Positions 20,925 through 43,317 of a stretch of 64,000 bases of DNA are shown here, one piece after another. A program made the translations under genes and the position numbers. Source of the stretch: Comamonadaceae bacterium. GTDB lineage: Bacteria > Pseudomonadota > Gammaproteobacteria > Burkholderiales > Burkholderiaceae_C. Position 1 is the first letter of the stretch. Each line of letters begins with the position of its first letter. Where the stretch lies: the NCBI GenBank assembly GCA_947454955.1, contig CANGLW010000012.1, forward strand, positions 1-64,000. Direction: 5' to 3'. A model generated the notes under the pieces. It did no database searches. It was not told where the DNA came from and saw only the letters and a list, made by a program, of their open reading frames with translations.

Positions 20925-20933
20925 GGCCACACC

Positions 20934-23937: not shown

Positions 23938-23992
23938 ACCCGCTACTCAAACGGTACAACGCCAACACATGCGCCAACCTACGCGCCAATAT

Positions 23993-24787: not shown

Positions 24788-24876
24788 GACTTCCGCAGCT
24801 TGCTCCTGGCTTGGCACGCTAGTTGCTAAATGGTCATATGGCTATCGGGCCATCAATGAACCATTCAGGAGTACTC

Positions 24877-25899: not shown

Positions 25900-26340
25900 T
25901 TGAACACCGTCACCAGCCACACCGATCCGTCAACGCAGGCAGGTTGGATCGTCAACGAATTCCTGCGGCTGATCATGATTCCCGATCCGCAGTCGGCCAG
26001 CCGTTACACCGCGCCGGACATGAAGATCATTTTCACCGGCAAGCGCCCCATGCGCGAGCCTGCAGACTGCACCAAATTCAACGCTTCGCGCTACAAATGG
26101 GTGAAAAAAAGCATCGAACGCACCGATGTGGTGATTCCGAGCGCCCAAGAAGCAGCCTTAGGTGAGACGGTGGTGTACAGCATCGGCACCTTGTATGGCG
26201 AATGGCCCGATGGTCAGCCCTTTGAGGGCAACCGCTATGTGGACCGGTATGTGGTGAAAAACGGTTTGATCACCCAGATGGATGTGTGGAACGACAGCGC
26301 CGAATGGATCTTGGTGCGCGCTGGCATGGCCGTCCTTTAA
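25900..26340 (+). CDS. NTF2/SnoaL-like small protein with TTG start
   Basis: A 146-residue protein with the cone-like fold pattern of SnoaL/NTF2 proteins: an N-terminal helix (WIVNEFLRLIMIPDPQSA), then ETVVYSIGTLYGEWPDGQPF, NRYVDRYVVKNGLITQMDVW and NDSAEWIL. The family contains isomerases, dehydratases and non-enzymes. The start is a TTG at 25900 with AGGAG 8 bases upstream; no ATG fits before residue 25. It is 36 bases after the Bug gene and 7 bases before the deacetylase gene, so it is very likely in one operon with both. Confidence 0.7.
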   Translation: MNTVTSHTDPSTQAGWIVNEFLRLIMIPDPQSASRYTAPDMKIIFTGKRPMREPADCTKFNASRYKWVKKSIERTDVVIPSAQEAALGETVVYSIGTLYGEWPDGQPFEGNRYVDRYVVKNGLITQMDVWNDSAEWILVRAGMAVL

Positions 26341-26347
26341 ATTTTTT

Positions 26348-27265
26348 ATGCCTGCTATTTACAACGGTCTTCTGCCCGATCATGGGCGCTTTGATTACTC
26401 CCCCATCACCCGTCGCAAAACCTACAGCTGGCCTGGCGGTGCGCGCTTGGCGGTGTACCTGGGCTTCAACATTGAACACTTCGCTTTTGGCGAGGGCATG
26501 GGTGCGGCCATCGGGCCCGTGAGCCCTCAGCCTGATGTTTTGAATTTCAGTTGGCGCGAATACGGCAACCGTGTCGGCGCCTGGCGTTGTCTGGAACTTT
26601 TCGACCAGCTGGGCATGCCAGCTGCGGCCATCATCAACACGGCTTTGTATGACCATTGCCCTGAGTTGATCGAGGCCTGTGTGGCCCGCGGTCATGAGTT
26701 GGTGGGGCATGGCCACAGCAATGCGGAGCGCCAAGGCGCGCTGGATGAAAACAACGAACGCGATCTGCTGGTGTATTGCAAAGAGCGCATGCAAAAAGAA
26801 AGCGGCCAGACGCCCACAGGCTGGCTCTCGCCCTGGATTTCTGAAAGCAAGGTCACGCCTGATCTGCTGCAAGAAACCGGCTACACCTACACCCTGAATT
26901 GGTGCCACGACGACCAGCCAATGACCATGCGCACGCGCAGTGGGCAGCCGCTTTGGGCCATTCCCTACCCGCAAGAGATCAACGACATCCCGATGATCGT
27001 GGCACGCCAGTTGGATGGCAAAGACTTTGCGCAAATGATCATCGACCAGCTCGATGAAATGCTGTTGCAAACCCAAGCCGAAGGCTCAGCACCCTTGGTC
27101 ATGGGCATCGCCCTGCACCCCTACATCATCGGCCAGCCTTATCGGCTGCATCACCTGCGCCGTGCCTTGCAACACGTGGCTGCAGCGCGCGATCAAGGCA
27201 AGGTGTGGATGACCACGCCAGGCGAGATCCATCGCCATATGGTTGGCATGGAACACGCGTCTTGA
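26348..27265 (+). CDS. polysaccharide deacetylase-family (CE4, PuuE-like) hydrolase
   Basis: A 305-residue protein of the NodB/CE4 fold, closest in layout to the PuuE-type allantoinase group. WPGGARLAVYLGFNIEHF carries the first strand, SWREYGNRVGAWR is characteristic of the group, and HGHSNAER takes the place of the metal-binding HxxxH region. GWLSPWISES and ALHPYIIGQPYRL (late His) follow. PuuE-like enzymes open cyclic ureides rather than deacetylate sugars. With the hydantoin-racemase-like gene upstream, a cyclic amide or ureide substrate is plausible but unproven. Confidence 0.75.
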   Translation: MPAIYNGLLPDHGRFDYSPITRRKTYSWPGGARLAVYLGFNIEHFAFGEGMGAAIGPVSPQPDVLNFSWREYGNRVGAWRCLELFDQLGMPAAAIINTALYDHCPELIEACVARGHELVGHGHSNAERQGALDENNERDLLVYCKERMQKESGQTPTGWLSPWISESKVTPDLLQETGYTYTLNWCHDDQPMTMRTRSGQPLWAIPYPQEINDIPMIVARQLDGKDFAQMIIDQLDEMLLQTQAEGSAPLVMGIALHPYIIGQPYRLHHLRRALQHVAAARDQGKVWMTTPGEIHRHMVGMEHAS

Positions 27266-27316: not shown

Positions 27317-28006
27317 TCAGGTGCTCTCTGGGTCGAAAGACGCCCGCACAATCTCGGCCGCTTTGGCCACGTGAGCGGCGGCTAAACGTGCGGCGGTTTG
27401 TGCGTCTCGTCGCTCCACCGCTTGCACCACTTCTTCAAGCTCCAACAAGGTTTGGGCTAGACGCCCTGGTGAGCCCAAAGACACGCGACGCAAGACCGAC
27501 ACACGGTTGTTGAGTTGGGTAAGGATCTCGCCTATGACCTTGTTGCCGCAACCTTCAAGCAGCGTGGCGTAAAAAGCGTTCTTCGCGTCCAACAGGTTTT
27601 TGGCGGTGGATGATGCTTGCGGCGTGCGTAAAAATTCAAGCGCTGCACGCAAGGCTTTGATCTGCACATCGCTGGCATTTTTGGCAAAGCCTGCACAGGC
27701 CAAACTTTCGAGCGAACCACGCACCTCATACAAAGCGTTGGCGTCTTGCAAGGTCAAGGTGGCCACCACTGGGCCCTTGTAAGGGATGATGGTGATCAGC
27801 CCTTCAGCTTGCAAGTGTTGCAGCGCCTCGCGTACCACCGTGCGGCTGATGCCCAAGGACTGCCACAGGTCACGTTCCACCAAGCGTTGCCCAGGAGAAA
27901 ATTTACCGGTCAAAATGGCTTCGCGAATTTTGTCGGTGGCACGCTGGCGCAGCGACACCACCTCCCGCGAGAGGTCCATGTCCAGGGTCTCAGACAGATC
28001 TTCCAT
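27317..28006 (-). CDS. GntR-family regulator with FCD domain
   Basis: A 229-residue regulator. The N-terminal winged helix (REAILTGKFSPGQRLVERDLWQS, then ISRTVVREALQHLQAEGLI) is of the GntR type. The C-terminal all-helical FCD domain begins at LYEVRGSLESLACAG and contains the ligand- or metal-binding His of AAHVAKAAEI. The ATG at 28006 has AAGG at good distance; a TTG at 28018 would overlap the upstream Bug stop by 4 bases. It is the last gene of the 15-gene catabolic unit and its likely regulator. Confidence 0.88.
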   Translation of the reverse strand: MEDLSETLDMDLSREVVSLRQRATDKIREAILTGKFSPGQRLVERDLWQSLGISRTVVREALQHLQAEGLITIIPYKGPVVATLTLQDANALYEVRGSLESLACAGFAKNASDVQIKALRAALEFLRTPQASSTAKNLLDAKNAFYATLLEGCGNKVIGEILTQLNNRVSVLRRVSLGSPGRLAQTLLELEEVVQAVERRDAQTAARLAAAHVAKAAEIVRASFDPEST

Positions 28007-28014
28007 GACCACCT

Positions 28015-28980
28015 TCAATCGATGCTGGCACCAGCGGCTGCCAACACCGGCGGCCAGGCTTTGAGTTCTGCGGTGGTGTGGTCACGCAGCGCCTCGGGCT
28101 TGAGGCGATCGCCTTGTGGCAGGACCACCCCCAGCTCAGCCAAGCGCTTGGCCACCGCGGGTGTGGCAAAAGCTGCACGCACCGCTTTGTTGAGCCGGTC
28201 AATCACCGGCGCAGGCGTGCCCTTGGGCGCGTAAAAACCATGCCACACCGCCAACTGAAAACCCGGCATGCCCGACTCAGCAAATGTGGGCACATTGGGC
28301 AAGATGGGCAAGCGCTCTTGTGTGGCCACCGCATAGGGCTTCAAGGTGCCGGCTTGCAGGTAAGCGCTGGTGGAGACCGGCTGGTCACAAATCATGTCCA
28401 CATTGCCGGCCAACACATCCATCAAGGCCGGACCTGTGCCGCGGTAAGGCACCATGGTGGTGCTGGTGCCCGTGGCTTGGTTGAAAAGCACCGCACACAG
28501 GTACGACGTAGCCCCCACACCGGCGTGTGCGAACTTCACATCACCAGGCTTGGCTTTCATGTGCTTGATAAGCTCACCCACTGTGGCCGGCGCAAACTTG
28601 CTGTTGCGCACCAAGATCATGGGCACATCACCCGCATGCGCGATAGGCTCCAGGTCTTTGCTCACATCAAAGCTGAGCTTGTTGTAGAGCGAAGGGGCAA
28701 TGGCAATGCCCATGTTGTGGAACAACACGGTGTGCCCGTCGTTGGGCGCGCGCACCACCTTGGCTGTCCCAATGGTGCCCCCGGCACCTCCTAAGTTTTC
28801 CACCACCACCGATTGTCCCAGCTCACGCGCCATGTTTTCTGCCAGCACGCGGGCAATCACATCGGTGGAGCCACCTGGTGCATAAGGCACCAGAAGGGTC
28901 ACGGGTTTGGTGGGGAAGGCTGAGGCAGCGAAGGACAAGGCTGCAGTTGCAGCCAAGAGCAGGTGTTTGAGCATGGCCAT
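28015..28980 (-). CDS. Bug-family solute receptor
   Basis: A 321-residue periplasmic receptor with signal peptide MAMLKHLLLAATAALSFAASA, then [53 protein letters not shown] and MVPYRGTGPALMDVLAG. It is the fourteenth gene of the minus-strand unit, directly before the GntR gene and 20 bases after a dehydrogenase. The unit also encodes a full Liv ABC importer and another Bug receptor, so this one may sense or bind a related ligand. Confidence 0.9.
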   Translation of the reverse strand: MAMLKHLLLAATAALSFAASAFPTKPVTLLVPYAPGGSTDVIARVLAENMARELGQSVVVENLGGAGGTIGTAKVVRAPNDGHTVLFHNMGIAIAPSLYNKLSFDVSKDLEPIAHAGDVPMILVRNSKFAPATVGELIKHMKAKPGDVKFAHAGVGATSYLCAVLFNQATGTSTTMVPYRGTGPALMDVLAGNVDMICDQPVSTSAYLQAGTLKPYAVATQERLPILPNVPTFAESGMPGFQLAVWHGFYAPKGTPAPVIDRLNKAVRAAFATPAVAKRLAELGVVLPQGDRLKPEALRDHTTAELKAWPPVLAAAGASID

Positions 28981-29000
28981 GGTTTCTCCTGAAGCGTCAA

Positions 29001-29870
29001 TCAGCGGGCCTGTTGGCCCACATAGGCGTACAACTCGGTGTGGTCGGCTTGTTTGCCTAAGTTGCCCGAGGCATCGTTGGTCATGCCTGAGACCACCTGT
29101 GCCAATGGCATGGGGTGGTTCACAGCTTGGCCTAGTGATGCGGCAATCCCCACATCTTTGGCTTGCAAGGCCAAAGAAAAGCCCGAATTGAAAGCCGCAT
29201 TGAGCATGTACTGATGCGCTTTGTTTTCGGTGGTGTTGTTCTTGCCGGTCGAGGCGTTGATCACATCCACAATCACCGCCTTGTCAATGCCAAACGCTGA
29301 GCCCACATGGATGGCCTCGGCCGTGGCAATCAAGGCTGCGGCCGATACATAGTTGTTCAACGCTTTGAGTGCATGACCAGCACCCACCGGCCCCACATGG
29401 GTGATGGCTTTGCCCATGGTTTGCAGCACAGGCTTGTGTGCTTCAAACAGCGCGAGGTCACCACCGACCATGATGGCCAGGGTGCCCGCCACGGCTTTTT
29501 TCACACCACCCGACACCGGCGCATCGATCAAGCCCAAACCTTGTGCGGCCAAGTGCTCAGCCAAGGCACGCGTGCGGGTCGGGTCCGCCGAGCTCATCTC
29601 GATCACACACGCACCTGGTTTGAGCTTGGGGGCAAGCTCTTTGACCACCGCATCCACAATGTCGGAATTGGGCAGCATGGTGATGATCACATCGCAGGCC
29701 GCAAAGGCGGCCGCATCTTGCGCCATGACCGCGCCCGCATGGGCTTGAACAAAACCTTGTGCGGCGCTGGTGATGGCGTCACGCACCACCAGGGTGTGGC
29801 CCGCTGCGTGCAGCAAATGGGCCATGGGCTGGCCCATCATGCCCAAACCGATGAATCCAATGGTGCTCAC
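29001..29870 (-). CDS. beta-hydroxyacid dehydrogenase (GarR/3-hydroxyisobutyrate dehydrogenase family)
   Basis: A 289-residue NAD(P)-dependent enzyme. It begins MSTIGFIGLGMMGQPMAHLL (GxGxxG), then has EMSSADPTRTRALAEHL, DAPVSGGVKKAVAGTLAIMV and the catalytic Lys in GAGHALKALNNYVS. Relatives reduce tartronate semialdehyde (GarR) or oxidise 3-hydroxyisobutyrate. It could supply the missing tartronate semialdehyde reductase for the aldarate pathway at 6-16 kb, but its operon points to another substrate. It lies 9 bases after the PcaC-like gene. Confidence 0.85.
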   Translation of the reverse strand: MSTIGFIGLGMMGQPMAHLLHAAGHTLVVRDAITSAAQGFVQAHAGAVMAQDAAAFAACDVIITMLPNSDIVDAVVKELAPKLKPGACVIEMSSADPTRTRALAEHLAAQGLGLIDAPVSGGVKKAVAGTLAIMVGGDLALFEAHKPVLQTMGKAITHVGPVGAGHALKALNNYVSAAALIATAEAIHVGSAFGIDKAVIVDVINASTGKNNTTENKAHQYMLNAAFNSGFSLALQAKDVGIAASLGQAVNHPMPLAQVVSGMTNDASGNLGKQADHTELYAYVGQQAR

Positions 29871-29879
29871 GTCAGCTCC

Positions 29880-30278
29880 TTAAATGTTCATTTCTTTGAA
29901 CACTTCCGAAGCAATTCGGAAAGAGTCAATGGCAGCTGGCACACCGCAATAAATCGCGACTTGCAGGAACACTTCTTTGATCTCGTCTTTGGTCAAGCCA
30001 TTGTTGATGGCACCACGCACATGCAGCTTCAATTCGTGCGGACGGTTCAGGGCGGCAATCATGGCCAGGTTCAAGAAAGAACGGGTTTTACGCTCCAGAC
30101 CGGGGCGGTTCCACACATCACCCCAGCAGTACTGGGTGACCAACTCTTGCATGTCGATGTTGAAGTCGGTGGCGTTTTTGATGGACGCATCCACATACTC
30201 GGTGCCCAACACTTGGCGGCGCATGGCCAGGCCTTGGTCAAACAGTTCCTGGTTCTTGGGGGCGTAAGGACGGGTCAT
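29880..30278 (-). CDS. carboxymuconolactone decarboxylase-family protein (PcaC-like)
   Basis: A 132-residue protein with the full pattern of gamma-carboxymuconolactone decarboxylase: FDQGLAMRRQVLGTEYVD, YCWGDVWNRPGLERKTRSFL, LKLHVRGAINNGLTKDEIKE and AIYCGVPAAIDSFRIASEVF. PcaC removes CO2 in protocatechuate breakdown, but no other pca genes are here. Together with the nearby alpha/beta-hydrolase and lactonase-type protein it suggests a lactone-forming or decarboxylating step. It follows the second Bug gene by 97 bases, the widest gap inside the unit. Confidence 0.87.
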   Translation of the reverse strand: MTRPYAPKNQELFDQGLAMRRQVLGTEYVDASIKNATDFNIDMQELVTQYCWGDVWNRPGLERKTRSFLNLAMIAALNRPHELKLHVRGAINNGLTKDEIKEVFLQVAIYCGVPAAIDSFRIASEVFKEMNI

Positions 30279-30375
30279 GAAAAACTCCTGATGGTCGTTG
30301 TGATAAAAAAATAAACGTCTGGCAATTTCGGCAGGTTCACATCAGAACTTGCCCGGCATTGCCGCACCGTGGTTC

Positions 30376-31344
30376 TCAATCAACACTGGCGCCCGAGGCG
30401 GCCACGATGGTTTTCCATTTGGCCAAGTCGGTGCGCAACATAGCGGCCAAGGCGTCTGGGCCACCGCTGAGTTTTTCAACACCCAGCGTGGCGAACTTGT
30501 CCAGCACATCAGCTGAAGACACCGCCCACTCCAGGTCTTGGGCCAGGCGGCGCACGATGGGCTCAGGGGTGCCTGCACCCACAAACACACCCACCCACAA
30601 CTCACCCGAAAAACCAGGCAAGGCTTCAGCAATGGCGGGAATGTCTGGCGCAAAAGGTGAGCGCTTGGGTGAACTCACCCCCAGCGCGCGCAACTTGCCC
30701 GCTTTGATGTGTTGGATGCATGAAGGCAGGCTGGCAAACGCCATCGGAATTTGCCCACCCAACACATCGTTCAAAGCGGGTGCCACACCGCGGTAAGGCA
30801 CATGGCCCAGTTGCAATTGCGCAGCCTGGTTGAGCATGGCCCCCAACAGATGGTTGAGCGAACCGTTGCCCGCTGAAGCATATTGGTAAGGTGGCTTGGC
30901 GGTGCGCGCGCGCTCCATGAACTCACGCATGGTGTTGGCCGGGAACGAGGGGTGCACCACCAGCACATTGGGCACCACACCGATGGGGGCCACCGGTGCG
31001 AAATCAGCCACCGGGTCAAAGCCGGTGCGCTTGTACAACCAGGGGTTGATGGCCTGCGCGCTGCTGATGGTCAGCAACAAGGTGTGACCATCTTGGGGCT
31101 GTTGCGCTGCGTACACCGTGCCGATGTTGCCGCCAGCACCGGGCTTGTTTTCTACCACCACCGAGCCCAAACGCTCGGAGAGTTTTTGCGCCAGGATGCG
31201 GCCCACCGCATCGTTGGTACCACCGGGTGCCTGAGGAACAATCAGCTGGATGGGTTTGGAGGGATAGGTCTGTGACCAGGCTGGTAGCACGGCACTGGCA
31301 GCACCCGCAGCAAGGGCAGCACAAACATCACGACGGTTCAACAT
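30376..31344 (-). CDS. Bug-family solute receptor
   Basis: A 322-residue receptor. The N-terminus MLNRRDVCAALAAGAASAVL is a signal peptide with a twin-arginine-like NRRDV. It continues with YPSKPIQLIVPQAPGGTNDA, VVENKPGAGGNIGTVYAAQ, ASAGNGSLNHLLGAML and HVPYRGVAPALND. It is the eleventh gene of the minus-strand unit, 17 bases after the CitE-like gene and 97 bases before the PcaC-like gene. The ligand is unknown. Confidence 0.9.
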   Translation of the reverse strand: MLNRRDVCAALAAGAASAVLPAWSQTYPSKPIQLIVPQAPGGTNDAVGRILAQKLSERLGSVVVENKPGAGGNIGTVYAAQQPQDGHTLLLTISSAQAINPWLYKRTGFDPVADFAPVAPIGVVPNVLVVHPSFPANTMREFMERARTAKPPYQYASAGNGSLNHLLGAMLNQAAQLQLGHVPYRGVAPALNDVLGGQIPMAFASLPSCIQHIKAGKLRALGVSSPKRSPFAPDIPAIAEALPGFSGELWVGVFVGAGTPEPIVRRLAQDLEWAVSSADVLDKFATLGVEKLSGGPDALAAMLRTDLAKWKTIVAASGASVD

Positions 31345-31361
31345 GGTGGTCTCCTCGGGCC

Positions 31362-32246
31362 TCAGGCGCTCAACTCACCAGCTTCGCGCAAAAGGCGCAG
31401 AGCTCGCTGGTACACAGGTTTGTCAATCATCTGGCCCTGGTGCTTGATGGCACCCTGGCCCTGGGCCATCGCCGCTTCAAAAGCTGCCACCAAGTCGCGT
31501 GCACGGCTGATTTGTTCAGGTGTGGCGGTGTAGCAGTCGTTGATGGCATCCACAAATTTCGGATGCACCACCACCGCGCCGCGAAAGCCCAAGGTGCGCG
31601 CTTGTGCCAACACCTTGCTGAATTCAGACACCTCGCCCAGGTCAGCGATCGAGGCCACAAAGCCAATCGGTGCAATACCTGCAGCGCGCGCGGCGTGCAG
31701 CACCATCAAGCTCGGGGCCATCAAGGCTTCGGGGGTGGGCAGGCCACCGCAGTCCAGCGAAAAATCTTCACTGCCCAGCATCATGCCCATGGTGCGTGCA
31801 TCGGCAGCAGCAATCTCATGCAAACGTGGCAAGGCCAGGCAGCTTTCAATCTGCAACAAAAAGCGCACACCACCCACCGGCATACCAGCAGCTTTTTCAA
31901 GGTCGGCCACCAGGCCCGAGAGCAATTGCACATCGCGCGGATGCTCCACTTTCGGCAGCAACACCACCGCCAAGCCGGGCACCACCGCGCAACGCAGGTC
32001 GGTCACCGCAGTGTTGAGGTCTGCATTGATACGCACCGCAGGCGCTTTGCCTGCTTGTGCCAATTGCGTGATGTGGTGCGACAAGGTGGCACGCGCCTGG
32101 TCTTTGCGTGAGGGGTGGGTGCCGTCTTCCAAATCCAGAATCACCACATCGGCCGACTTGGCCAGGGCGCTGGCAATGAGCCGCTCGTTGTCGGCGGGCA
32201 CAAACAAAAATGACCGTCGCAGGTGTGTGCTGATATGCGTGCTCAT
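31362..32246 (-). CDS. CitE-type CoA ester lyase (HpcH/HpaI family)
   Basis: A 294-residue lyase. LRRSFLFVPADNERLIASAL opens it, VVILDLEDGTHPSRKDQA carries the acidic metal-site segment, and AVRINADLN, LPKVEHPRDVQ (catalytic region), FLLQIESCLALPRL (metal Glu) and LGSEDFSLDCGG follow. Relatives split malyl-, citramalyl- or similar CoA esters into acetyl-CoA and a 2-oxoacid. The ATG at 32246 overlaps the CoA-transferase stop by 4 bases, so the two products probably act in sequence: CoA transfer, then cleavage. Confidence 0.87.
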   Translation of the reverse strand: MSTHISTHLRRSFLFVPADNERLIASALAKSADVVILDLEDGTHPSRKDQARATLSHHITQLAQAGKAPAVRINADLNTAVTDLRCAVVPGLAVVLLPKVEHPRDVQLLSGLVADLEKAAGMPVGGVRFLLQIESCLALPRLHEIAAADARTMGMMLGSEDFSLDCGGLPTPEALMAPSLMVLHAARAAGIAPIGFVASIADLGEVSEFSKVLAQARTLGFRGAVVVHPKFVDAINDCYTATPEQISRARDLVAAFEAAMAQGQGAIKHQGQMIDKPVYQRALRLLREAGELSA

Positions 32247-33448
32247 GGCTTGCTCTTTGGCTTGGCTTGCCCCAACCACTTGGCGTTGTCTTGCCCAATG
32301 CTGGGTGCTGCGCGACGGATGGGTGGGCGCTTGCCGTTGATTCTGTAAGGTGCAGCGTGAATCGACAGGGTTTGCCCATCGGGTGCAGTGGTGGGCACCA
32401 GCAGTTCACGCTCTTGGATGTAGGGGTGCTTCATCAGATCGGCGATGTCGCAAATCGGGCCTGCGGTGATGTCGCGTTCCGCAAAAAACACCAGGGCTTC
32501 GTCCAGGGTCAGTTTGACCAAATGGCCTTGGATCAAATCATCCAAAGCATCGATGTTTTTCAAACGTGCTTCATGGCTTGAGAAGCGTGGGTCACGCAAA
32601 CCCTCGGGGTAGCCTATGCCTTCAAACAAACGCGCCAAGGTGCCTTCCATGCCTGCTGATAAGGCCACCCAACGGTCATCACGGGTGCGGTACACATTGC
32701 GCGGCGCATGGGTGGGTGAGCGGCTGCCCGAGCGCGGCACCACCGTGCCGGTGAGCTCATGCTCCGCGGCTTGCGGGCCCAGGATGGAGAACAGCGGCTC
32801 GAACAAGGACAAATCAATCTCTTGCACCTGGGGGGCAGCACTGGCGCGTTGGCGGTGCATGGCCGCCAAAGCTAAGGTAGCACCGTAAATGCCAGCCACC
32901 GAATCGGCCATGGCAAAGGGTGGCAAGACCGGCGGGCGATCGGCGTAGCCGTTCATGGCGGCAAAGCCACTCATGGCTTCAATCAAGGAACCAAAGCCGC
33001 CCTTCTCAGCAAACACACCGGTTTGCCCCCAACCTGAAATTCGCACCACCACCAGGCGCGGGTTGAGCGCCTGCAGCTTTGCTTTGCTCAAGCCCATACG
33101 CTCCAAGGTGCCAGGGCGAAAGTTCTCCACCATCACATCGGCGCGTTGGATCAGGTCTTGCAAATGCGCCTTGCCTTCGTCTGATCGCAAATCGAGTGAC
33201 ACACTTTGCTTGTTGCGTGCGTAGGCCAACCAATAGGTGCTCACACCTTGGCGCTTCCAACCGCGCAACTCATCGCCTTTGCCTGGTGGCTCGACCTTGA
33301 TGACATCAGCCCCCAGGTCGGCCAAGACATGGGTCATCAAATTGCCCGAGACCAAACGGGACAAGTCCAAAACGGTCAGGCCGTTCAAGGGCGTTTGTTC
33401 CGCGCTCATGGTGTCAGGGCTGGTGGGCATGTGTGTCCTTGAGGGCAT
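32243..33448 (-). CDS. CaiB/BaiF (class III) CoA-transferase
   Basis: A 401-residue family III CoA-transferase. Motifs are LNGLTVLDLSRLVSGNLMTH, LGADVIKVEPPGKGDELRGW, ENFRPGTLERMGL and the catalytic Asp in FAMADSVAGIYGA. These enzymes move CoA from a donor such as succinyl-CoA to a carboxylic acid. With the coupled CitE-like lyase it resembles pairs for itaconate/citramalate or malate-type acids, but no hydratase is present. The ATG at 33448 shares one base with the thioesterase stop (TGATG). Confidence 0.88.
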   Translation of the reverse strand: MPSRTHMPTSPDTMSAEQTPLNGLTVLDLSRLVSGNLMTHVLADLGADVIKVEPPGKGDELRGWKRQGVSTYWLAYARNKQSVSLDLRSDEGKAHLQDLIQRADVMVENFRPGTLERMGLSKAKLQALNPRLVVVRISGWGQTGVFAEKGGFGSLIEAMSGFAAMNGYADRPPVLPPFAMADSVAGIYGATLALAAMHRQRASAAPQVQEIDLSLFEPLFSILGPQAAEHELTGTVVPRSGSRSPTHAPRNVYRTRDDRWVALSAGMEGTLARLFEGIGYPEGLRDPRFSSHEARLKNIDALDDLIQGHLVKLTLDEALVFFAERDITAGPICDIADLMKHPYIQERELLVPTTAPDGQTLSIHAAPYRINGKRPPIRRAAPSIGQDNAKWLGQAKPKSKP

Positions 33449-33831
33449 CAACGCAAGTACTTGAAGGTGCCCACGCCACTGGCCAACATCAGCTGGTCAT
33501 CCAACCAAACTTCGCCGCGCGCAAAGTACACACTGCGCCCTCTGCGCTCCATGAAGCCTTTGGCCACCAGGGTGTTGCCCTCACCGGTGTTCAAGAATTG
33601 GGTGGTGAGCGAGAGCGTCACATTGCGCACCGCTGGCTCACCCGGCGGCACATACAAACCTGCGTAGCCGCACACCGCGTCCAGCAAGGTGCACATCAAG
33701 CCGCCTTGCACGCGGCCGATGCGGTTCATGTGGTGGGGCGAGGTGCTCAGCGTCATCTCGGCGTAATCGGTGTTCCAGTCGGTCAGGCGAACGCCCAGCC
33801 ACTCAAGAAACGGGTTGTCTATGGGATGCAT
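33448..33831 (-). CDS. PaaI-type hotdog thioesterase
   Basis: A 127-residue hotdog-fold protein. The pattern NPFLEWLGVRLTDWNTDYAEM, then HHMNRIGRVQGGLMCTLLDAVC (with the PaaI-type Asn-Gly-Gly-Asp-like active segment, here RVQGGLMCTLLD) is typical. It probably hydrolyses or rescues CoA esters that build up in the pathway. It is translationally coupled to the CoA-transferase through a one-base overlap and follows the metallohydrolase by 42 bases. Confidence 0.83.
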   Translation of the reverse strand: MHPIDNPFLEWLGVRLTDWNTDYAEMTLSTSPHHMNRIGRVQGGLMCTLLDAVCGYAGLYVPPGEPAVRNVTLSLTTQFLNTGEGNTLVAKGFMERRGRSVYFARGEVWLDDQLMLASGVGTFKYLR

Positions 33832-33873
33832 CTGAAATCGTTTGAAGCCTGTGGACCGTATCGATCGATGGCC

Positions 33874-34668
33874 TCAAGGCTTGCGCAAATCGGTGAGTGA
33901 AAAAATGTCCAGCCCACTGGGGCCGCTGGGCTCATAAAGCGAACAGGTCAAAGGGTCGTGGCCGGCAATGATGTGGTCAGGCGACTCGGCCAACTGCTCC
34001 ACAATTTCATAGGCGCTGAGCATCTGCCCCGCATCGGCCACGATGGGAAAGGGCGAACGTTTGCGCAGGTTTTCCAGGTAGTGCGACGCGTCAGAGGCCA
34101 GCACCATCCAACCCCGTTTGGTATGCACCCGCACGATTTGTAAACCGCGGGTGTGGCCACCTACCCAATGCACGGTGATGCCTGGGCGCAACTCGTAAGC
34201 CCCGTCATGAAAAGCCAAGCGCTCTTGGAAATTGGCATACACCAGATCGCACACATCCGCGGGGTCGTAAGCGTTGCGCATGAAGGCATAGCGCATCTCT
34301 TTGCCAGTGGCAAAGGCCATCTCTTTTTCTTGCAAATGGAACTGCGTGTTTTGCAAAAGACGCGTATTGCCCGCATGGTCGTAATGCGCGTGGGTGATCA
34401 CGGTTTCGCGGATGTCTTCCAGGTGAATACCTGCGGTACGCAAAGATTCAATGGGGCAACGCAAGAAGGTGCGTTTACGCTGACGTGCTGCGGCTTCGTT
34501 GAAGCCGGTGTCAATCAGAATGGTTTCGTCGCCACTGCGCAAAAACCAAACAAAGTAGTCCATGGTCGACATCGCATCGTGGATGTCGTGCACGATGAAG
34601 TTCTCACTGGGCTTGCGCTGCACGGTGGCATAGCGCATGGCGTAGGCTTCCCACTGTTTGATGCTCAT
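33874..34668 (-). CDS. N-acyl homoserine lactonase-family metallo-beta-lactamase hydrolase
   Basis: A 264-residue MBL protein. The metal site THAHYDHAG has H93, H95, D97 and H98; further ligands are in WVGGHTRGLQIV, LASDASHYLEN and IIAGHDPL. Sequence layout matches the AiiA-like lactonase branch. Within this catabolic unit it more likely opens a pathway lactone than quenches quorum signals, but both are possible. Its ATG overlaps the alpha/beta-hydrolase stop by 4 bases. Confidence 0.82.
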   Translation of the reverse strand: MSIKQWEAYAMRYATVQRKPSENFIVHDIHDAMSTMDYFVWFLRSGDETILIDTGFNEAAARQRKRTFLRCPIESLRTAGIHLEDIRETVITHAHYDHAGNTRLLQNTQFHLQEKEMAFATGKEMRYAFMRNAYDPADVCDLVYANFQERLAFHDGAYELRPGITVHWVGGHTRGLQIVRVHTKRGWMVLASDASHYLENLRKRSPFPIVADAGQMLSAYEIVEQLAESPDHIIAGHDPLTCSLYEPSGPSGLDIFSLTDLRKP

Positions 34669-35903
34669 GAGCTGGCTCCTTGGGTGGCACGGGCATGCAA
34701 AGCGGCCAAAGGCGCGCGTAAAAACGGCATGAGCCCGTCGGGGTTTTCAACCATGGGGAAATGCCCAAAGCCTGGCATCTCCTGAAACACAGCACCGGGT
34801 ATGGCTTCAGCCACACGGCGTGTGTCGGCCGGCGTGGCTGAGTAGTCGTAGTTGCCGGTGAGCAAATACAAAGGTGTGCGTTGGGTGTCGATGTCTGCGG
34901 TGTGATGCCGCGCATCAAACTGGTCGCTGTAAAACGCCAAGTCGCCGTCGTACACACTGGGCGCAGACTGCGAGTAAATCCAGGTGGCGTGGTCGCGCCC
35001 ACTGGCTGGGCTGTTGGGGCTGAGCAGCGCACCCACCCATGCTGCGCTGAGTCGCCCGCCATGCACTTGCGCGTGGTTCAGGTAAGGTGAGCGCCGGCCC
35101 GGTGAATGGAAGGGTGCTTCCAACAACACCGCACCCACAAAGCGGTCGGCATGGCGCGCCAGCAAAGGCAGGCTGATGGCCGAGCCCATGGAGCAACCCA
35201 TGAGCGTGACCTTGTCGAGTTGCATGGCATCGAGGTAACGCAAGACCCAGTTGATGTACTGGTCTTGGTCGAGCTGCCAAGTCCAATTGGCCAACCCTTC
35301 AGGCAAAGGCGAGCGGCCGTGTCCGGGCACATCAAAGGCCAAGAGTTGCCAGGCTTGGCGCAACTCGTCTTGCGCCATGAGGCCGTGCCACTGGCGGGCA
35401 TCCGCACCCGCGGTGTGCAGCATCAAAAGCGGTGGGCCGTTGCCACAGGTTTCGCTGTACACCCAAGTTTCAGCTTCGTCCCGAAGTGGCAGGTATTGAC
35501 CACGCACATGCGCCAGCGCATCGAAGTAGCGCGGCTTGGCCGGGCTTGCATCACCAGGGCTGCGCATGGCTTGCAGCAATCGCTCCAAGAGCGGCAAGGC
35601 TTGTGCCCAATGCAACTCCTGGCCTTGGATACGAAAGCCAGGAACCTGCCGGCGCAAGGCACCAAACGATTGGTAACCCACCGCAGGCTGAGGACCCAGT
35701 GCTTCACCCCAAACAGCAGCGTCCGCCCAACAAGCCACTTCGGTGCCCGCATCGCGTGCTGTGCAAATGCGCAGGGTCTGAGGCGCTGCGTTGTCGGAGG
35801 TCAACACAAAACTCACGCCCACGGGACAGTTAGCGAGGTCGGCCTGCACCGCGCTCACCCGCAGGGCGCGATCAAAAGCGGCTTGCAGTTGTTGCTGATT
35901 CAC
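34665..35903 (-). CDS. alpha/beta-hydrolase with an extra N-terminal domain
   Basis: A 412-residue protein. Residues from about 135 to the end form an alpha/beta-hydrolase: oxyanion region LLMLHTAGADARQW, nucleophile elbow GCSMGS (S238), acid in LLTGNYDYSATP, and the catalytic His in MPGFGHFPMVENPD. Residues 1-120 are an additional region (FDRALRVSAVQADLANCPVG, later WADAAVWGEALG) that I cannot place with certainty; it recalls a small SCP2-like domain. Esters, lactones or C-C bonds (as in meta-cleavage hydrolases) are possible substrates. It follows livF by 24 bases. Confidence 0.83.
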   Translation of the reverse strand: MNQQQLQAAFDRALRVSAVQADLANCPVGVSFVLTSDNAAPQTLRICTARDAGTEVACWADAAVWGEALGPQPAVGYQSFGALRRQVPGFRIQGQELHWAQALPLLERLLQAMRSPGDASPAKPRYFDALAHVRGQYLPLRDEAETWVYSETCGNGPPLLMLHTAGADARQWHGLMAQDELRQAWQLLAFDVPGHGRSPLPEGLANWTWQLDQDQYINWVLRYLDAMQLDKVTLMGCSMGSAISLPLLARHADRFVGAVLLEAPFHSPGRRSPYLNHAQVHGGRLSAAWVGALLSPNSPASGRDHATWIYSQSAPSVYDGDLAFYSDQFDARHHTADIDTQRTPLYLLTGNYDYSATPADTRRVAEAIPGAVFQEMPGFGHFPMVENPDGLMPFLRAPLAALHARATQGASS

Positions 35904-35927
35904 GTGAGGTCCTTCACCAGTGCCGGC

Positions 35928-36641
35928 TCATATGCCCAAATAGGCTTCGCGGATGCGGCTGTCGTTGAGCAGCATCTGCGCTGAACCGTCCAAGACCACC
36001 TCGCCACTTTGCAGCACAAACGCATGCTGCGCCACCGACAAAGCCAGCTTGGTGTTTTGCTCAACGAGCAACATGGTCACACCGGTTTTGTGAATGGCCA
36101 CCAAGGCGTCGTGCAGCTCTTGCACAATTTTGGGCGCCAAGCCGTGGCTGGGCTCATCGAGCAACAGCAAGCTGGGCTTGCCCATCAAGGCGCGACCAAT
36201 CGCCACCATTTGCTGCTCGCCACCTGACAAAGTACCCGCCAGTTGGCGACGACGCTCTGCCAGGCGTGGGAACTGCGCAAAGATGCTGTCCAGGGTTTCA
36301 CGCAAGGCTTGTGTTTGTGTGCGGCGGTGGTAGCCACCGAGCATCAGGTTTTCTTCCACCGACATGGCGGGGAACACATGACGACCTTCGGGCACATGCG
36401 AGATGCCGCGCTGAGGTATTTGGTGTGCCGGCAAGTCCAGCAGGTTCTCACCTTGAAAAAGAATCTCGCCGGCGGTATTGGGCAGCAAGCCCGAGATGGC
36501 GCGCAGCAAAGTACTTTTGCCCGCGGTGTTGGCCCCAATCACCGCCACAAAAGCGCCGGCGTCCACACGCAGGTTCACACCATGCAGCACCTCTGCACCG
36601 TCGTAAGCCGCACGCAGGTTTCGGATGTCGAGCAATCTCAT
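35928..36641 (-). CDS. livF: branched-chain-type ABC transporter ATPase LivF
   Basis: A 237-residue ATPase. Walker A is GANTAGKST (residues 36-44), the signature is LSGGEQQMVAIGRAL, Walker B ends in LLLLDEPSHGLAP, and the H-loop region is LLVEQNTKLAL, the LivF signature sequence. The ATG at 36641 overlaps the livG stop by 4 bases. In this cluster the importer probably carries a carboxylate or aromatic acid rather than leucine. Confidence 0.93.
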   Translation of the reverse strand: MRLLDIRNLRAAYDGAEVLHGVNLRVDAGAFVAVIGANTAGKSTLLRAISGLLPNTAGEILFQGENLLDLPAHQIPQRGISHVPEGRHVFPAMSVEENLMLGGYHRRTQTQALRETLDSIFAQFPRLAERRRQLAGTLSGGEQQMVAIGRALMGKPSLLLLDEPSHGLAPKIVQELHDALVAIHKTGVTMLLVEQNTKLALSVAQHAFVLQSGEVVLDGSAQMLLNDSRIREAYLGI

Positions 36642-37381
36642 GCGTGACCTCCTGCGTCCATGTCGTTGCCCAAATAGGCTGCGATCACATCGGGGTTGCG
36701 GCTGATGTCTTGCGGGTTGCCCTCTGCAATTTTTTGACCGAAGCTCAACACAAAAATACGTTCGCACAAGTTCATGATGGCGCGCATGTGGTGCTCAATC
36801 ACGATGAAGGTCAGGCCCTCTTCGTTTCTGAGCTTGCGGATCAAATCCAGAATTTGGTCCATCTCGCTGTGGTTCAAAGCGGCCATCACCTCGTCGAGCA
36901 AAACCACCTTGGGCTGTGTGCACAGGGCACGCGCCATTTCCACCAAAGCCTTTTCAGGAAAGGTGAGATCGGCTGCGCGCTTGTCAGCGATATGCGCCAT
37001 GCCCACCTTGGCCAGGTTCTCGCGGGCATAGTTGCGTGCTTCGTTCAACGACAAACGCAGCAAGCCCCCGGTGAGCACGTTGTCGAGCACTGTCATCTCT
37101 GGGAACAGCGCCACGTTTTGGAACGTTTTGACCATGCCCAGCTGGGCAATGTTGTGAGGCTTCAAGCCAGTGATGCGCTCACCGCTCAAATACACCTCGC
37201 CCGCACTGGGCTTGACCAAGCCCATCAACAAATTAAAGAGCGTGGTTTTGCCCGCACCGTTGGGGCCAATCAAGCCGATCAGCTCGCCCTGCTGCACGCT
37301 GAGCTGCAAATTGTTGACGGCCACCAGACCCCCGAAGCGGCGCGTCAAACCCTCGACACGCAAGATAGGCGTAGTGCTCAT
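36638..37381 (-). CDS. livG: branched-chain-type ABC transporter ATPase LivG
   Basis: A 247-residue ATPase. Walker A is GPNGAGKTT, the typical LivG loop VKTFQNVALFPEMTVLDN follows, and Walker B is VVLLDEVMAALNHSEMDQ, with HHMRAIMNLCERI as the H-loop region. The signature motif is degenerate (DLTFPEKALVEMARAL in place of LSGGQQ), a variation seen in some Liv ATPases. It overlaps livM and livF by 4 bases each. Confidence 0.92.
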   Translation of the reverse strand: MSTTPILRVEGLTRRFGGLVAVNNLQLSVQQGELIGLIGPNGAGKTTLFNLLMGLVKPSAGEVYLSGERITGLKPHNIAQLGMVKTFQNVALFPEMTVLDNVLTGGLLRLSLNEARNYARENLAKVGMAHIADKRAADLTFPEKALVEMARALCTQPKVVLLDEVMAALNHSEMDQILDLIRKLRNEEGLTFIVIEHHMRAIMNLCERIFVLSFGQKIAEGNPQDISRNPDVIAAYLGNDMDAGGHA

Positions 37382-38334
37382 AGTTTCTTCACCAGACGCT
37401 GGTACAGCGCTTGAAGGCCGCGGGGTTCAAGCAAGATGATGAGAATCAGAATCAGGCCAAACGCGAGCTGCGACACACCTGCGCCCACCCCTGACAAGGT
37501 GGCGTTGAACACCTCTTCAAGGGGCAGCAAAAAGCACGCGCCAATGATCGGACCGGCCACGGTGCCAATGCCACCGATGATGCAAATCAGCGCTACACGC
37601 ACTGAAATACTCACCAGCGAGAACACCGAGTCGGGGTCAAAGAAGAAGTTGAATTGGGCGTAGAGCACGCCACAACCGCCCATGAGTGCTGCAGAAATCG
37701 TAGCAGCCAGCATTTTGGTGCGCGAGGTGTTGATGCCAATCACCTCGGCCGAATCCACATTGGCTTTGACCGCACGCAGCGCATAACCCAAACGGGAGTT
37801 GCTGATCTTCCAGTACACCGCGGTGCAGACGATCAAGGCGCACAGCATCACATAAAAATAAGGCCGGGCCGATGAGAACTGCATGAGCGCGATGCCGGCA
37901 TCGGGCACCAGGGGCACCGAAATGCCCACCGGCCCACCGGTGACCGAGGTCCAGGTGTTGCCGATCGAACGCAACACCTCAGCAAACGCCAAGGTGGCCA
38001 AAGCAAAGTAGTGGCCTTTGAGGCGCATGGTGGGCAGGCTCAGCAAGGCACCCGCTGCACCCGCCACCACCATGCCTGCGGCAATGCCGAGCCAGGGCGA
38101 GAGGCCAAAACGAATCAACAAAATGGTGGAGGTGTAAGCGCCCAAACCAAAGAAGGCGGCATGCCCCAAAGAGATTTGGTTGGCCAACCCACCCACAATG
38201 TTCCAAGCCTGGGCCATGGCCGCAAACAAGAGCAAAAGGGTGAGCACCCGCAGCATGTAACCGTTCTCTGAAATCGTCCAGGGAACAACGCAGACGACAG
38301 CCAAGGCGGCCGCCAACAAGTAGTGACGTTTCAT
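37378..38334 (-). CDS. livM: branched-chain-type ABC transporter permease LivM
   Basis: A 318-residue permease with about eight to ten hydrophobic segments. It carries the family pattern GGLANQISLGHAAFFGLGAYTS, LRLKGHYFALATLAFAEVLR (here MRLKGHYFALATLAF), and GIGTVAGPIIGACFLLPLEE. It is coupled to livH and livG by 4-base overlaps. Confidence 0.93.
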   Translation of the reverse strand: MKRHYLLAAALAVVCVVPWTISENGYMLRVLTLLLLFAAMAQAWNIVGGLANQISLGHAAFFGLGAYTSTILLIRFGLSPWLGIAAGMVVAGAAGALLSLPTMRLKGHYFALATLAFAEVLRSIGNTWTSVTGGPVGISVPLVPDAGIALMQFSSARPYFYVMLCALIVCTAVYWKISNSRLGYALRAVKANVDSAEVIGINTSRTKMLAATISAALMGGCGVLYAQFNFFFDPDSVFSLVSISVRVALICIIGGIGTVAGPIIGACFLLPLEEVFNATLSGVGAGVSQLAFGLILILIILLEPRGLQALYQRLVKKL

Positions 38335-39191
38335 GACTTCCAGCGCAGTAGACCTTCTGGGCGCAGCGCCAAGGTCAGAATAAAGACGATGAAGAGCACC
38401 AGGTTTTGCAGCTGCAGCGGCAGGTACAAGCCCGAGATGGACTGGATCACGCCCACGGCCAAACCACCCACCACCGCGCCCAACACATTGCCCAACCCGC
38501 CCAACACCACCACGGTGAACATGAGCACACCAAACTGCTCACCCGCCGCGGGTGAGACGGTCATGTAAGGCAAGATGATGGCGCCACCAAAGGCGGTGAG
38601 GCCCACGCCCAAACCCACGGCCAAGCGGTAGACCGCATCGGGGTTGATGCCCATGAGCTTGGCGGCCATCGGGTCTTGCGCGGTGCTACGTACCGCCCTG
38701 CCCCACCAGGTGCGGGTCAGCACCCACCAGATGCTGATGCCTGCGACCACCGAGCAACAAAACGCAATACCGTAAGGCATGCTGATGATCAGGCCACCGA
38801 CCTCGATGGCCTCGTTCTGATACCAGGTTTGCACCGATCGGAATTGCGAGCCAAAGGCAATCAGCGCCAAGTTTTCAATGACGATGAGGATGCCCACCGT
38901 CAAGAAAATCTGGGCCACCTCCGGTGCTTTGAGCACCGGGCGAATCAGCCAATGCTGAATCAGATAGCCCAGACAGAACACCACCGCAAACGCCAACAAG
39001 GAACCCAGCAACGGGTCCAAACCCAGCTTGCTCCAGGCGAAGTAGGCGACGTACATCCCGACCATCAAAAATTGTGCTTGCGCAAAATTGACGATCGAGA
39101 CCACGCCGAACACCAAGGTCAACCCAATCGAGATGACCGCATACACCCCGCCGAGCATGAGCCCGTCGAGAATGGCTTGTAACAGCGCCAT
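38331..39191 (-). CDS. livH: branched-chain-type ABC transporter permease LivH
   Basis: A 286-residue permease with about eight hydrophobic segments, starting LLQAILDGLMLGGVYAVISI and GLTLVFGVVSIVNFAQAQF, both hallmarks of LivH. The EAA-like loop RAVRSTAQDPMAAKLMGIN and the late GGLGNVLGAVVGGLAVGV also fit. It begins 9 bases after livK. Confidence 0.93.
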   Translation of the reverse strand: MALLQAILDGLMLGGVYAVISIGLTLVFGVVSIVNFAQAQFLMVGMYVAYFAWSKLGLDPLLGSLLAFAVVFCLGYLIQHWLIRPVLKAPEVAQIFLTVGILIVIENLALIAFGSQFRSVQTWYQNEAIEVGGLIISMPYGIAFCCSVVAGISIWWVLTRTWWGRAVRSTAQDPMAAKLMGINPDAVYRLAVGLGVGLTAFGGAIILPYMTVSPAAGEQFGVLMFTVVVLGGLGNVLGAVVGGLAVGVIQSISGLYLPLQLQNLVLFIVFILTLALRPEGLLRWKS

Positions 39192-39200
39192 TCGAGATCC

Positions 39201-40421
39201 TCAAACGTTGCGGGTGATCAGCTTGCCTTTGGCAAATTTTTGCGGCCACACGGTGACCAACTCTTTGTTCTGCCACTGCACCATCACAGGCTCGGCAGCC
39301 ACGTTCAAGCCGGTCTCGTCAAACTTGACCTGACCGTTGGTCATGGTTTTGGCCCAACCCTGGGTGAAGGTGGTGCTGCGCAGCGCGCTGGCAATGTCTT
39401 CAGACTTGGCCGACTTCGCACCGTTGATGGCTTGGATCAGCACATCCATGGCCACCGCGTGTTCTTGTGCCTCGTGCACCATGAACGATTTGAAACGCTT
39501 GCGGTAACGCTCGGTGGCCTCGGTGTCGAGGTCATAGTTGGCCGAGCAAATCGACAACACGCCGTCGGAATACTCACCCAAAGCCTGGGCAAAGTCGGGA
39601 ATCACATAACCGGCCGAGCCGCCCACGATGGGCATGTTGATGCGCTGTTGGCGCAGGGCACGCACGATGAGCAAGCTGTCGTTGAGGTAAGAGACGGGGA
39701 AGACCATTTGCGCTTTGGAGGCGCGCAGCTTGTTGATCAGCGGCGTCACATCGGTGATGCCCAGCGGGTAGGCCTCGTCCATCACGATCTCAGCGCCCGC
39801 GGCCTTGGCCGCAGCGCGCAGGCCGTTGGCGGTGGAGGTGCCGTAAGCGGTGTCTTCAAACATGATGGCGATCTTGTTGACCTTCTCGCTGCCACCAGCC
39901 AATTCCACCGCGTAGTTGAACTGCGCCTTGCCGATCACGCTGCCTTTGGAGGTGACCTGGAACACATTTTTGAAACCGCGACCGGTGATCTGGTCTGAGT
40001 AAGACATGGTGAGCAGCGGCACGCGGCGGCGCTCGGTCACTTCTTGAATAGCCAGGGTGAGCGATGAAGCAAAGGCACCCAAAATGGCGCAGCAATCGTT
40101 CTCACCAATCATGCGCTGGGCCACGGTGGCCGCGTTCGCAGGTGCTGAGGTGGAGTCAGCCACCACCAAATTGATCTTGGCACCGCCCAAACCTTTGAGG
40201 CCACCGGCCGCGTTGAGCTCGTCAACCACCAGCTCGATGCCCTGACGGGAATTGATACCGAACTGCGCGTTCGCGCCCGACAAAGGCAGGATCACCCCGA
40301 CATTGACCGGCTTGGCTTGCGCCAGCGTGGAGAAAGGCAAGGCGCTCGCCAGACCGGCGGCAGCTAAACCCTTGAGTGCCTGGCGGCGGTCAGGCTGATT
40401 CTTGCGACGGATGTCACCCAT
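39201..40421 (-). CDS. livK: ABC transporter periplasmic receptor (LivK/aromatic-acid type)
   Basis: A 406-residue type I periplasmic binding protein. MGDIRRKNQPDRRQALKGLA plus ASALPFSTLAQA is a long signal sequence with a twin-arginine-like RRQALKG. The mature part begins KPVNVGVILPLSGANAQFG and includes INLVVADSTSAPANAATVAQ and IAIMFEDTAYGTSTANGLRA. First gene of the 15-gene minus-strand unit; AGGAG precedes the ATG and a promoter lies 34 bases upstream. The ligand is unknown. Confidence 0.9.
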   Translation of the reverse strand: MGDIRRKNQPDRRQALKGLAAAGLASALPFSTLAQAKPVNVGVILPLSGANAQFGINSRQGIELVVDELNAAGGLKGLGGAKINLVVADSTSAPANAATVAQRMIGENDCCAILGAFASSLTLAIQEVTERRRVPLLTMSYSDQITGRGFKNVFQVTSKGSVIGKAQFNYAVELAGGSEKVNKIAIMFEDTAYGTSTANGLRAAAKAAGAEIVMDEAYPLGITDVTPLINKLRASKAQMVFPVSYLNDSLLIVRALRQQRINMPIVGGSAGYVIPDFAQALGEYSDGVLSICSANYDLDTEATERYRKRFKSFMVHEAQEHAVAMDVLIQAINGAKSAKSEDIASALRSTTFTQGWAKTMTNGQVKFDETGLNVAAEPVMVQWQNKELVTVWPQKFAKGKLITRNV

Positions 40422-40454: not shown

Positions 40455-40483
40455 ATTATGGGTAGGGGTTCTTTGTTGGTCAA
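40455..40483 (-). promoter_or_regulatory. sigma-70-type promoter of the livK-led operon
   Basis: On the minus strand a -35 box TTGACC (40478-40483) and a -10 box CATAAT (40455-40460) are exactly 17 bases apart. Transcription would start near 40448, about 27 bases before the livK ATG. Confidence 0.65.
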
Positions 40484-40494
40484 TAGGATTGAAC

Positions 40495-40509
40495 GATTGT
40501 CTGACAATC
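40495..40509. promoter_or_regulatory. 15-bp palindrome upstream of the livK promoter
   Basis: GATTGTCTGACAATC is a perfect inverted repeat (6-base arms, 3-base centre). Its core TTGT-N3-ACAA resembles sites of GntR/FCD (FadR-subfamily) regulators. It ends 11 bases upstream of the -35 box, centred about 54 bases before the predicted start. The GntR gene at the end of the same unit is the natural candidate to bind it. It could instead be part of the transcript end of the DMT gene. Confidence 0.5.
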
Positions 40510-43303: not shown

Positions 43304-43317
43304 ACCAACTCCCTGAA

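Follow-up and report, generated by a model that had tools for sequence, protein, structure and literature searches.

A conserved, probably GntR-regulated catabolic operon of fifteen genes in a Comamonadaceae genome

A stretch of 64,000 nucleotides from a Comamonadaceae bacterium (contig CANGLW010000012.1, positions 1 to 64,000; hereafter the window) carries fifteen minus-strand genes that form one tight unit at positions 27317-40421, and these genes are the subject of this report. The window sits on a 77.7 kb contig (C12) of a 2.78 Mb genome that is assembled in 101 contigs and is 94.8% complete. From livK onward the genes encode a LivKHMGF transporter, an alpha/beta-hydrolase (ABH), a metallo-beta-lactamase-fold hydrolase (MBL), a PaaI thioesterase, the CoA-transferase CaiB, a CitE-like lyase, the receptor Bug1, a PcaC-like protein, a beta-hydroxyacid dehydrogenase (HADH), the receptor Bug2 and a GntR regulator (Table 1). 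The list of open reading frames (ORFs) and the family searches bear out the gene order, overlaps, gaps and families given in a first-pass annotation of this DNA. There are six 4-base overlaps (GntR/Bug2, CitE/CaiB, MBL/ABH, LivF/LivG, LivG/LivM and LivM/LivH), if CitE and LivF are given the ATG starts found within their longer listed ORFs, and the widest intergenic gap is 97 bases, from PcaC to Bug1. Upstream, the next gene encodes an EamA transporter and lies 117 bases off, across a promoter-like site and a 13-base palindrome. At the downstream boundary the GntR gene, the last of the operon, faces a convergent polysaccharide deacetylase gene (26282-27265, plus strand).

The nearest named relatives of the operon are found in two metagenome-assembled genomes (MAGs) labelled Hylemonella (loci L045 and L054), which is why the host is regarded as a Hylemonella-like bacterium of the Comamonadaceae. 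All fifteen genes are present in L054 with the order kept. L045 has 14 of the 15 in order; Bug1 is missing there, and Bug2 and GntR are separated by an aldehyde dehydrogenase gene. The immediate neighbours of the operon differ among the window, L054 and L045. A trio of small genes (window 20155-21353; L054 16365-17555) is convergent to the operon, with matching orientation relative to it, and lies 6-7 kb beyond the operon end in the window and 1.7-3 kb beyond it in L054; the operon therefore occupies a related chromosomal place in these two. The first-pass annotation had raised the case of relatives in which the genes are always split between loci, and L054 and L045 keep them together. The operon is accessory, because the MBL gene is rare: it turned up in 3 of the 26 genus genomes (15 of the 26 reach 90% completeness with no more than 5% contamination) and, under a stricter limit, in 6 of 150 genomes of an even sample of the family, the window's genome being included in both counts.

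Table 1. Features of the fifteen-gene unit and its leading region, in window positions.
Feature	Position	Strand	Basis
Palindromic operator ATTGTCTGACAAT, presumed GntR site	40496..40508	.	Motif search; 13 bases, perfect palindrome
Sigma-70-like promoter TTGACC-17-CATAAT before livK	40455..40483	-	Promoter scan, 10-of-12 match
LivK-type receptor (Peripla_BP_6)	39201..40421	-	Family search
LivH-type permease	38331..39191	-	Family search
LivM-type permease	37378..38334	-	Family search
LivG-type ATPase	36638..37381	-	Family search
LivF-type ATPase, likely ATG start inside longer listed ORF	35928..36641	-	Family search, ORF list
Alpha/beta-hydrolase (ABH), predicted SCP2-like N-terminal domain at about residues 1-115	34665..35903	-	Family search and model
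Metallo-beta-lactamase-fold hydrolase (MBL) resembling N-acyl-homoserine lactone (AHL) lactonases	33874..34668	-	Family and structure-relative searches
PaaI-like hotdog thioesterase	33448..33831	-	TIGR00369 38.8 bits, cut-off 36.6
Class III CoA-transferase (CaiB), true start probably slightly inside	32243..33451	-	Family search
CitE-like lyase (HpcH/HpaI)	31362..32246	-	Family search
Bug1 (TctC) receptor, closest solved relative Bug27	30376..31344	-	Family search
Gap before pcaC, degenerate operator-like site ATTGCCAGACGTT, 3 mismatches	30279..30375	-	Motif search
PcaC-like (CMD family) protein, distinct subfamily	29880..30278	-	Family search, tree
Beta-hydroxyacid dehydrogenase (HADH), 3-hydroxyisobutyrate dehydrogenase (3-HIBADH) family	29001..29870	-	Family search
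Bug2 (TctC) receptor, closest solved relatives BugD and 6hke	28015..28980	-	Family search
GntR/FCD regulator	27317..28018	-	Family search

The regulator gene encodes a GntR protein with an FCD domain, and a short palindrome, the predicted site, stands at the promoter. In the 117-base leading gap the promoter match ends 34 bases before the livK start and the palindrome lies just upstream of it. L054 and L045 also have a 10-of-12 promoter match at the same place before livK; over the window as a whole the promoter scan was no better than chance (4 found against a mean of 3.4 in shuffles). At up to 1 mismatch the palindrome has 1 match in the 64-kb window, where 0.07 are expected, and the exact form is a single copy in the genome, at livK. 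It is exact in L054 and has 1 mismatch in L045. Four of nine genomes searched have the exact operator and a reversed-pattern control occurs in none; in three of them (G000, G563 and G098) there is one copy each, always at the operon locus. Among 19 intergenic regions, 117 to 2123 bases long with the window's included, ten have the operator at up to 1 mismatch (the window, L054, L045, L050, L055, L037, L049, L088, L103 and one of two in L105), two have it at 2 mismatches (L040 and L108) and seven at 3 or more. Random 200-base stretches of eight loci, own sites included, came within 1 mismatch of the palindrome in 0.75% of draws. Elsewhere, two near-exact copies 64 bases apart were seen away from the core genes (L138 5320-5396; G416 C1:1727319-1727395).

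An operator-like site is also found in the gap before pcaC, at 1 mismatch in both Hylemonella relatives and in a 3-mismatch form in the window. It is therefore likely that, in the relatives at least, the second (pcaC) block has an internal start controlled by the same regulator. The first-pass annotation had counted separate internal promoters with different induction against a single unit; an internal site is indeed present, but it carries the same motif as the livK operator.

The unit consists of two blocks joined, and the same genes recur elsewhere rearranged, often with the same operator. The cultured Lacisediminimonas profundi (L050) and a Rhodospirillaceae MAG (L055) have LivKHMGF divergent from GntR-PcaC-HADH-ABH-MBL, and L037 and L040 have LivKHMGF-GntR-ABH-MBL divergent from PcaC-HADH-Bug2. 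In Marinobacter the MBL gene and PcaC-like, dehydrogenase-like and aldehyde dehydrogenase genes lie among genes of a tripartite ATP-independent periplasmic (TRAP) transporter. Genes in the relatives' loci were called with a codon-score gene caller; L040 and L108 (a Diaphorobacter plasmid) probably represent a single plasmid region, and the Rhizobium plasmids L105 and L106 resemble each other closely, so that neither pair is independent. The proposal of one catabolic unit in the first-pass annotation is strengthened by the order kept in two relatives, the single exact operator copy and the swapping of the transporter type in relatives.

How often the genes travel together depends on the seed. 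Starting from MBL (44 of 46 fetched loci, with the weak MBL hits L089 and L090 left out), a PcaC gene was found no more than 5 kb away in 9 of the 11 loci whose MBL identity is at least 70%, in 3 of the 6 between 50 and 70% and in 4 of the 27 under 50%; in the two misses of the first class MBL is 193 and 1140 bases from a contig end. Starting from PcaC, a match at an expectation (E) value of up to 1e-25 was obtained in 138 of 399 genomes from the order. When the 20 best PcaC matches other than the window's own are taken, 8 have HADH within 6 kb, 4 have GntR, 3 LivK, 2 Bug2 and one MBL; three contigs in this set are shorter than 7 kb. HADH directly adjoins PcaC in 6 of the 20, and in 15 of these loci no neighbour apart from HADH matched more than two other loci. 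Taken together, these counts show that the PcaC-HADH pair is recurrent, that the triple with MBL is a property of the MBL subclade and that many PcaC copies have neither partner. Several of the alphaproteobacterial MAG loci L066-L084 have a recurrent locus of HADH, MBL and CaiB, with genes resembling a VOC protein and an amidohydrolase and without PcaC.

The first-pass annotation had read the PcaC-like protein in terms of ring cleavage, and this reading has to be changed. The protein scores 159.0 bits against TIGR02425, only 3.3 over the cut-off of 155.7. Six copies of its subfamily, the genome's second copy included, score 148.4-159.1 bits (the L105 protein without its first 13 residues), and a copy from a pcaDCHGB operon scores 201.5. 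In a tree of 33 rows, from which the L118 protein was removed by the length or duplicate filter, just two rows come from pca operons and these stand on their own branch of length 1.06 with support of 100/99. By score and tree position, the protein is provisionally assigned to a paralogous subfamily outside pca operons, and the name PcaC alone should not be taken as ground for ring-cleavage chemistry. Plasmid-borne relatives of the window's protein reach 92% identity. The second PcaC-like gene of the genome (L101 1628-2038, contig C19) is about 56% identical to the operon's and lies beside a gene resembling an Lrp-type regulator.

About 120 residues at the N-terminus of the alpha/beta-hydrolase form an additional domain that is partly conserved in relatives. 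No SCP2 family in Pfam matched this region at an E value of up to 1. A model of it from five sequences has a mean predicted local distance difference test score (pLDDT) of 89.7, and in a Foldseek search against the PDB ranks 1-15 were all SCP2-type structures; the best alone was below an E value of 0.001 (8e-4), with template-modelling (TM) scores of 0.39-0.58. The model suggests an SCP2-alpha/beta-hydrolase fusion among catabolic enzymes. In the whole-length model, which has a moderate pLDDT of 71.9, the catalytic part resembles the AHL-degrading esterase Est816 and the PcaD enol-lactonase in fold, and the score of the hydrolase on the PcaD equivalog model is 78.8 bits against a cut-off of 255.85. 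The MBL protein falls far short of the cut-offs for the named lactonases that it matched (best 72.8 against 375); its solved relatives include AiiA, the best being 8x78. For the receptors, the closest solved structures are BugD, which we take to bind aspartate, and 6hke, presumably a malate binder, for Bug2, and Bug27 for Bug1. By inference, the substrate that would best suit the enzymes is a hydroxy- or oxo-dicarboxylic acid in lactone or ester form, and all hints to it, the varied gene contexts in other genomes included, are weak.

The CoA part of the operon has a looser attachment. PaaI-CaiB-CitE-Bug1 is inside the operon in the window and in L054, and in L045 without Bug1. An uncultured Burkholderiales locus (L049) and a Limnohabitans locus (L088) have a divergent Bug1-CaiB-CitE beside the core genes, at 59-60, 48 and 36% identity. 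In both, CaiB beside the core is the genome's best match (L049, 367 bits, next 229; L088, 372 bits, next 243) and CitE beside the core is the sole match in the genome at an E value of up to 1e-20. In G098 and G570 the nearest CaiB and CitE genes adjoin each other away from the core. CaiB-CitE-Bug1 is thus linked to the remaining operon genes in fewer genomes than the other blocks are.

Several known systems share parts of this gene set. The protocatechuate branch of the beta-ketoadipate pathway (pcaDCHGB) also has a PcaC-family protein and a PcaD-like alpha/beta-hydrolase in one operon. The present operon, however, is without PcaGH and PcaB, has MBL, HADH, CaiB and CitE in addition, and its PcaC-like protein and hydrolase differ from those of the pathway as described above. 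The genome has two PF00775 proteins on other contigs, both with the catechol-type Dioxygenase_N domain, and thus no protocatechuate 3,4-dioxygenase was found; PcaGH was not found in the 94.8% complete genome, with scores of 76.0 and 53.1 bits for PcaH (cut-off 296.4) and 50.1 and 33.0 for PcaG (cut-off 126.25), the first protein being cut by a contig end. The protocatechuate branch was set aside since PcaGH was not found and the PcaC-like protein lies on another branch. The statement of the first-pass annotation that there is no dioxygenase stands for the fifteen genes, none of which encodes an oxygenase, but not for the genome. The two intradiol dioxygenase genes are on the short contigs C78 (L099) and C75 (L100), with neighbours resembling quinone oxidoreductases.

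Itaconate and citramalate are broken down by CoA-lyase gene sets such as Rip and Ict-Ich-Ccl, and like these the operon has a CoA-transferase gene adjoining that of a CitE-family lyase. The Rip route was set aside because the lyase scores 124 bits on the RipC model against a cut-off of 375 and there is no MaoC hydratase in the operon; a MaoC-type hydratase was looked for among the fifteen genes and not in the rest of the genome. Citrate lyase is not indicated, as CitE scores 175.5 on its equivalog model against 443.4 and the operon has no CitD or CitF. AHL lactonases such as AiiA and AttM have the same fold as the MBL protein, and quorum quenching was set aside because of the scores far under the cut-offs and the catabolic context. 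Vitamin B6 degradation by the 4-pyridoxolactonase route also uses an MBL lactonase and an alpha/beta-hydrolase, and a Rhizobium daejeonense relative lies among B6- and pyridine-type annotations, but the 4-pyridoxolactonase model gives 30.6 bits against 325 and no other gene of the route was recognised in the operon. Searches of the open-licence literature, in so far as its text was accessible, gave no description of the whole fifteen-gene combination, and those on CitE and itaconate and on Hylemonella and lignin led nowhere. Within these family models and this literature, the remark of the first-pass annotation that no described pathway fits fully holds.

The reading preferred here, at a probability of roughly 0.55, is a substrate-induced catabolic operon for a lactone- or ester-bearing carboxylate that is opened, decarboxylated and fed via CoA into central metabolism. 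It starts from the gene content, the order, their conservation, the conservation of the operator and the linkage of the blocks, from which we infer regulation by GntR, the substrate class, the order of reactions and the products. The GntR/FCD protein would bind ATTGTCnGACAAT next to the promoter of livK, and probably also a further site in front of pcaC, until the substrate or an intermediate releases it. LivKHMGF, perhaps with both Bug receptors, would import this carboxylate. Its ester or lactone may then be opened by the SCP2-like/alpha-beta hydrolase and the MBL-fold lactonase to give a hydroxyacid, the beta-hydroxyl of which would be oxidised by the 3-HIBADH-type enzyme. The PcaC-like protein would take CO2 off the resulting beta-keto (or vinylogous) acid, and CaiB would transfer CoA onto the product. 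Cleavage of the hydroxyacyl-CoA by the CitE-like lyase would yield a short acyl-CoA plus a 2-oxoacid, and CoA may be released from dead-end esters by the PaaI thioesterase. A more specific and more tentative suggestion is that this is an undescribed Comamonadaceae route under a dedicated GntR and ATTGTCnGACAAT operator, in which the SCP2-hydrolase fusion, the AHL-lactonase-like enzyme, the 3-HIBADH paralogue and the paralogous PcaC subfamily strip and decarboxylate a lactone and the CaiB-CitE pair finishes the product.

A number of observations weigh against this catabolic reading. The operator is not exclusive to the operon: the sole exact copy in G416 lies away from the core genes, about 110 bases from a GntR-like gene whose product is 27% identical to the operon's GntR. 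At 1 mismatch the reversed control gives at least as many hits as the operator in two of eight genomes (5 against 2 in G098; 4 against 4 in G416) and fewer in the other six, which leaves position-specific sites as the only informative ones. Most core loci have no CitE nearby, and the CoA part may therefore serve something else. The MBL gene is restricted to 3 of the 26 genus genomes, PcaC is near MBL in just 4 of the 27 loci of lowest MBL identity, and the PcaC subfamily is often without its partners; the presence of HADH at 8 and MBL at 1 of the 20 PcaC-seeded loci speaks against a fixed PcaC-HADH-MBL module. No equivalog model passed its cut-off for MBL, ABH, HADH, CaiB or CitE.

Could the operon instead be the lower part of an aromatic or heteroaromatic ring-cleavage route, with a lactone or enol-lactone supplied by oxygenases elsewhere in the genome or by other microbes? 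In Variovorax RA8, relatives of the core genes do have four Rieske-domain proteins as neighbours. In Rhizobium the neighbours of such relatives are an LLM-class flavin-dependent oxidoreductase and a flavin reductase, and on a Rhizobium daejeonense plasmid (L115 2472-17365: MBL, HADH-like and PcaC-like) they are genes with pyridoxamine-pyruvate transaminase, 2,5-dihydroxypyridine dioxygenase and amidase annotations. The hydrolase is closest in sequence to PcaD-type enol-lactonases, and the genome has the two catechol-type dioxygenases. However, the operon has no oxygenase of its own, and the exact operator occurs in the genome solely at livK, with one further site at 1 mismatch on contig C16. 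The score of the hydrolase also remains far under the PcaD cut-off, and in Shinella a PcaC of the window's subfamily sits beside aconitases. Such a ring-cleavage role is considered rather unlikely.

It is less probable still that small units (Liv ABC with the hydrolases; CaiB-CitE-Bug; PcaC-HADH-Bug-GntR) have merely been stacked and do not form one pathway. The blocks do occur apart: PcaC-HADH-Bug2 adjoins GntR in Comamonas endophytica, where the 24 kb read contain neither MBL nor ABH, and CaiB and CitE are neighbours away from the core in G570 and G098. Yet the blocks meet in varied orders in several families, the operator is common to many of them, and the 15-gene order is kept in a second genome despite different immediate neighbours. 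The idea that the PcaC-like protein is an AhpD-like redox or housekeeping protein and not a decarboxylase, leaving a hydrolysis and CoA-lyase route without decarboxylation, is given an equally low chance: the subfamily is widespread, conserved and often without the operon's partners, and cysteines 51 and 111 (YCWG and YCGVP) are both kept in 27 of the 33 rows, with alanine at both places in the two pca-operon rows and one cysteine missing in four others (the genome's own second copy included), but the cysteines are 60 residues apart with no CxxC pair, most rows retain the LH motif that precedes the conserved arginine or glycine region, and HADH directly adjoins PcaC in 6 of the 20 PcaC-seeded loci.

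Some features of the surroundings may be added. Downstream of the operon a gene of the Asp/Glu/hydantoin racemase family is followed by another Bug (TctC) receptor gene (23969-25863, plus strand). Upstream of the EamA transporter a small histidine-kinase-like gene is flanked by genes of GlmS and GlmU type (41441-45527, minus strand). An Rfam scan of the window gave no match. A recent foreign origin was set aside on composition, as the 2-kb bins of the operon have a G+C content of 0.577-0.597 against 0.596 for the window.

The fifteen genes are a real and conserved catabolic operon, probably regulated by GntR, in which known families are found in a combination without description in the literature searched, as far as that literature was accessible. 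The operon provides a testable handle on a widespread subfamily that is named 4-carboxymuconolactone decarboxylase in databases and that occurs here outside pca operons. The operator, together with relatives in the cultured L. profundi and on sequenced plasmids, makes induction and deletion tests practical.

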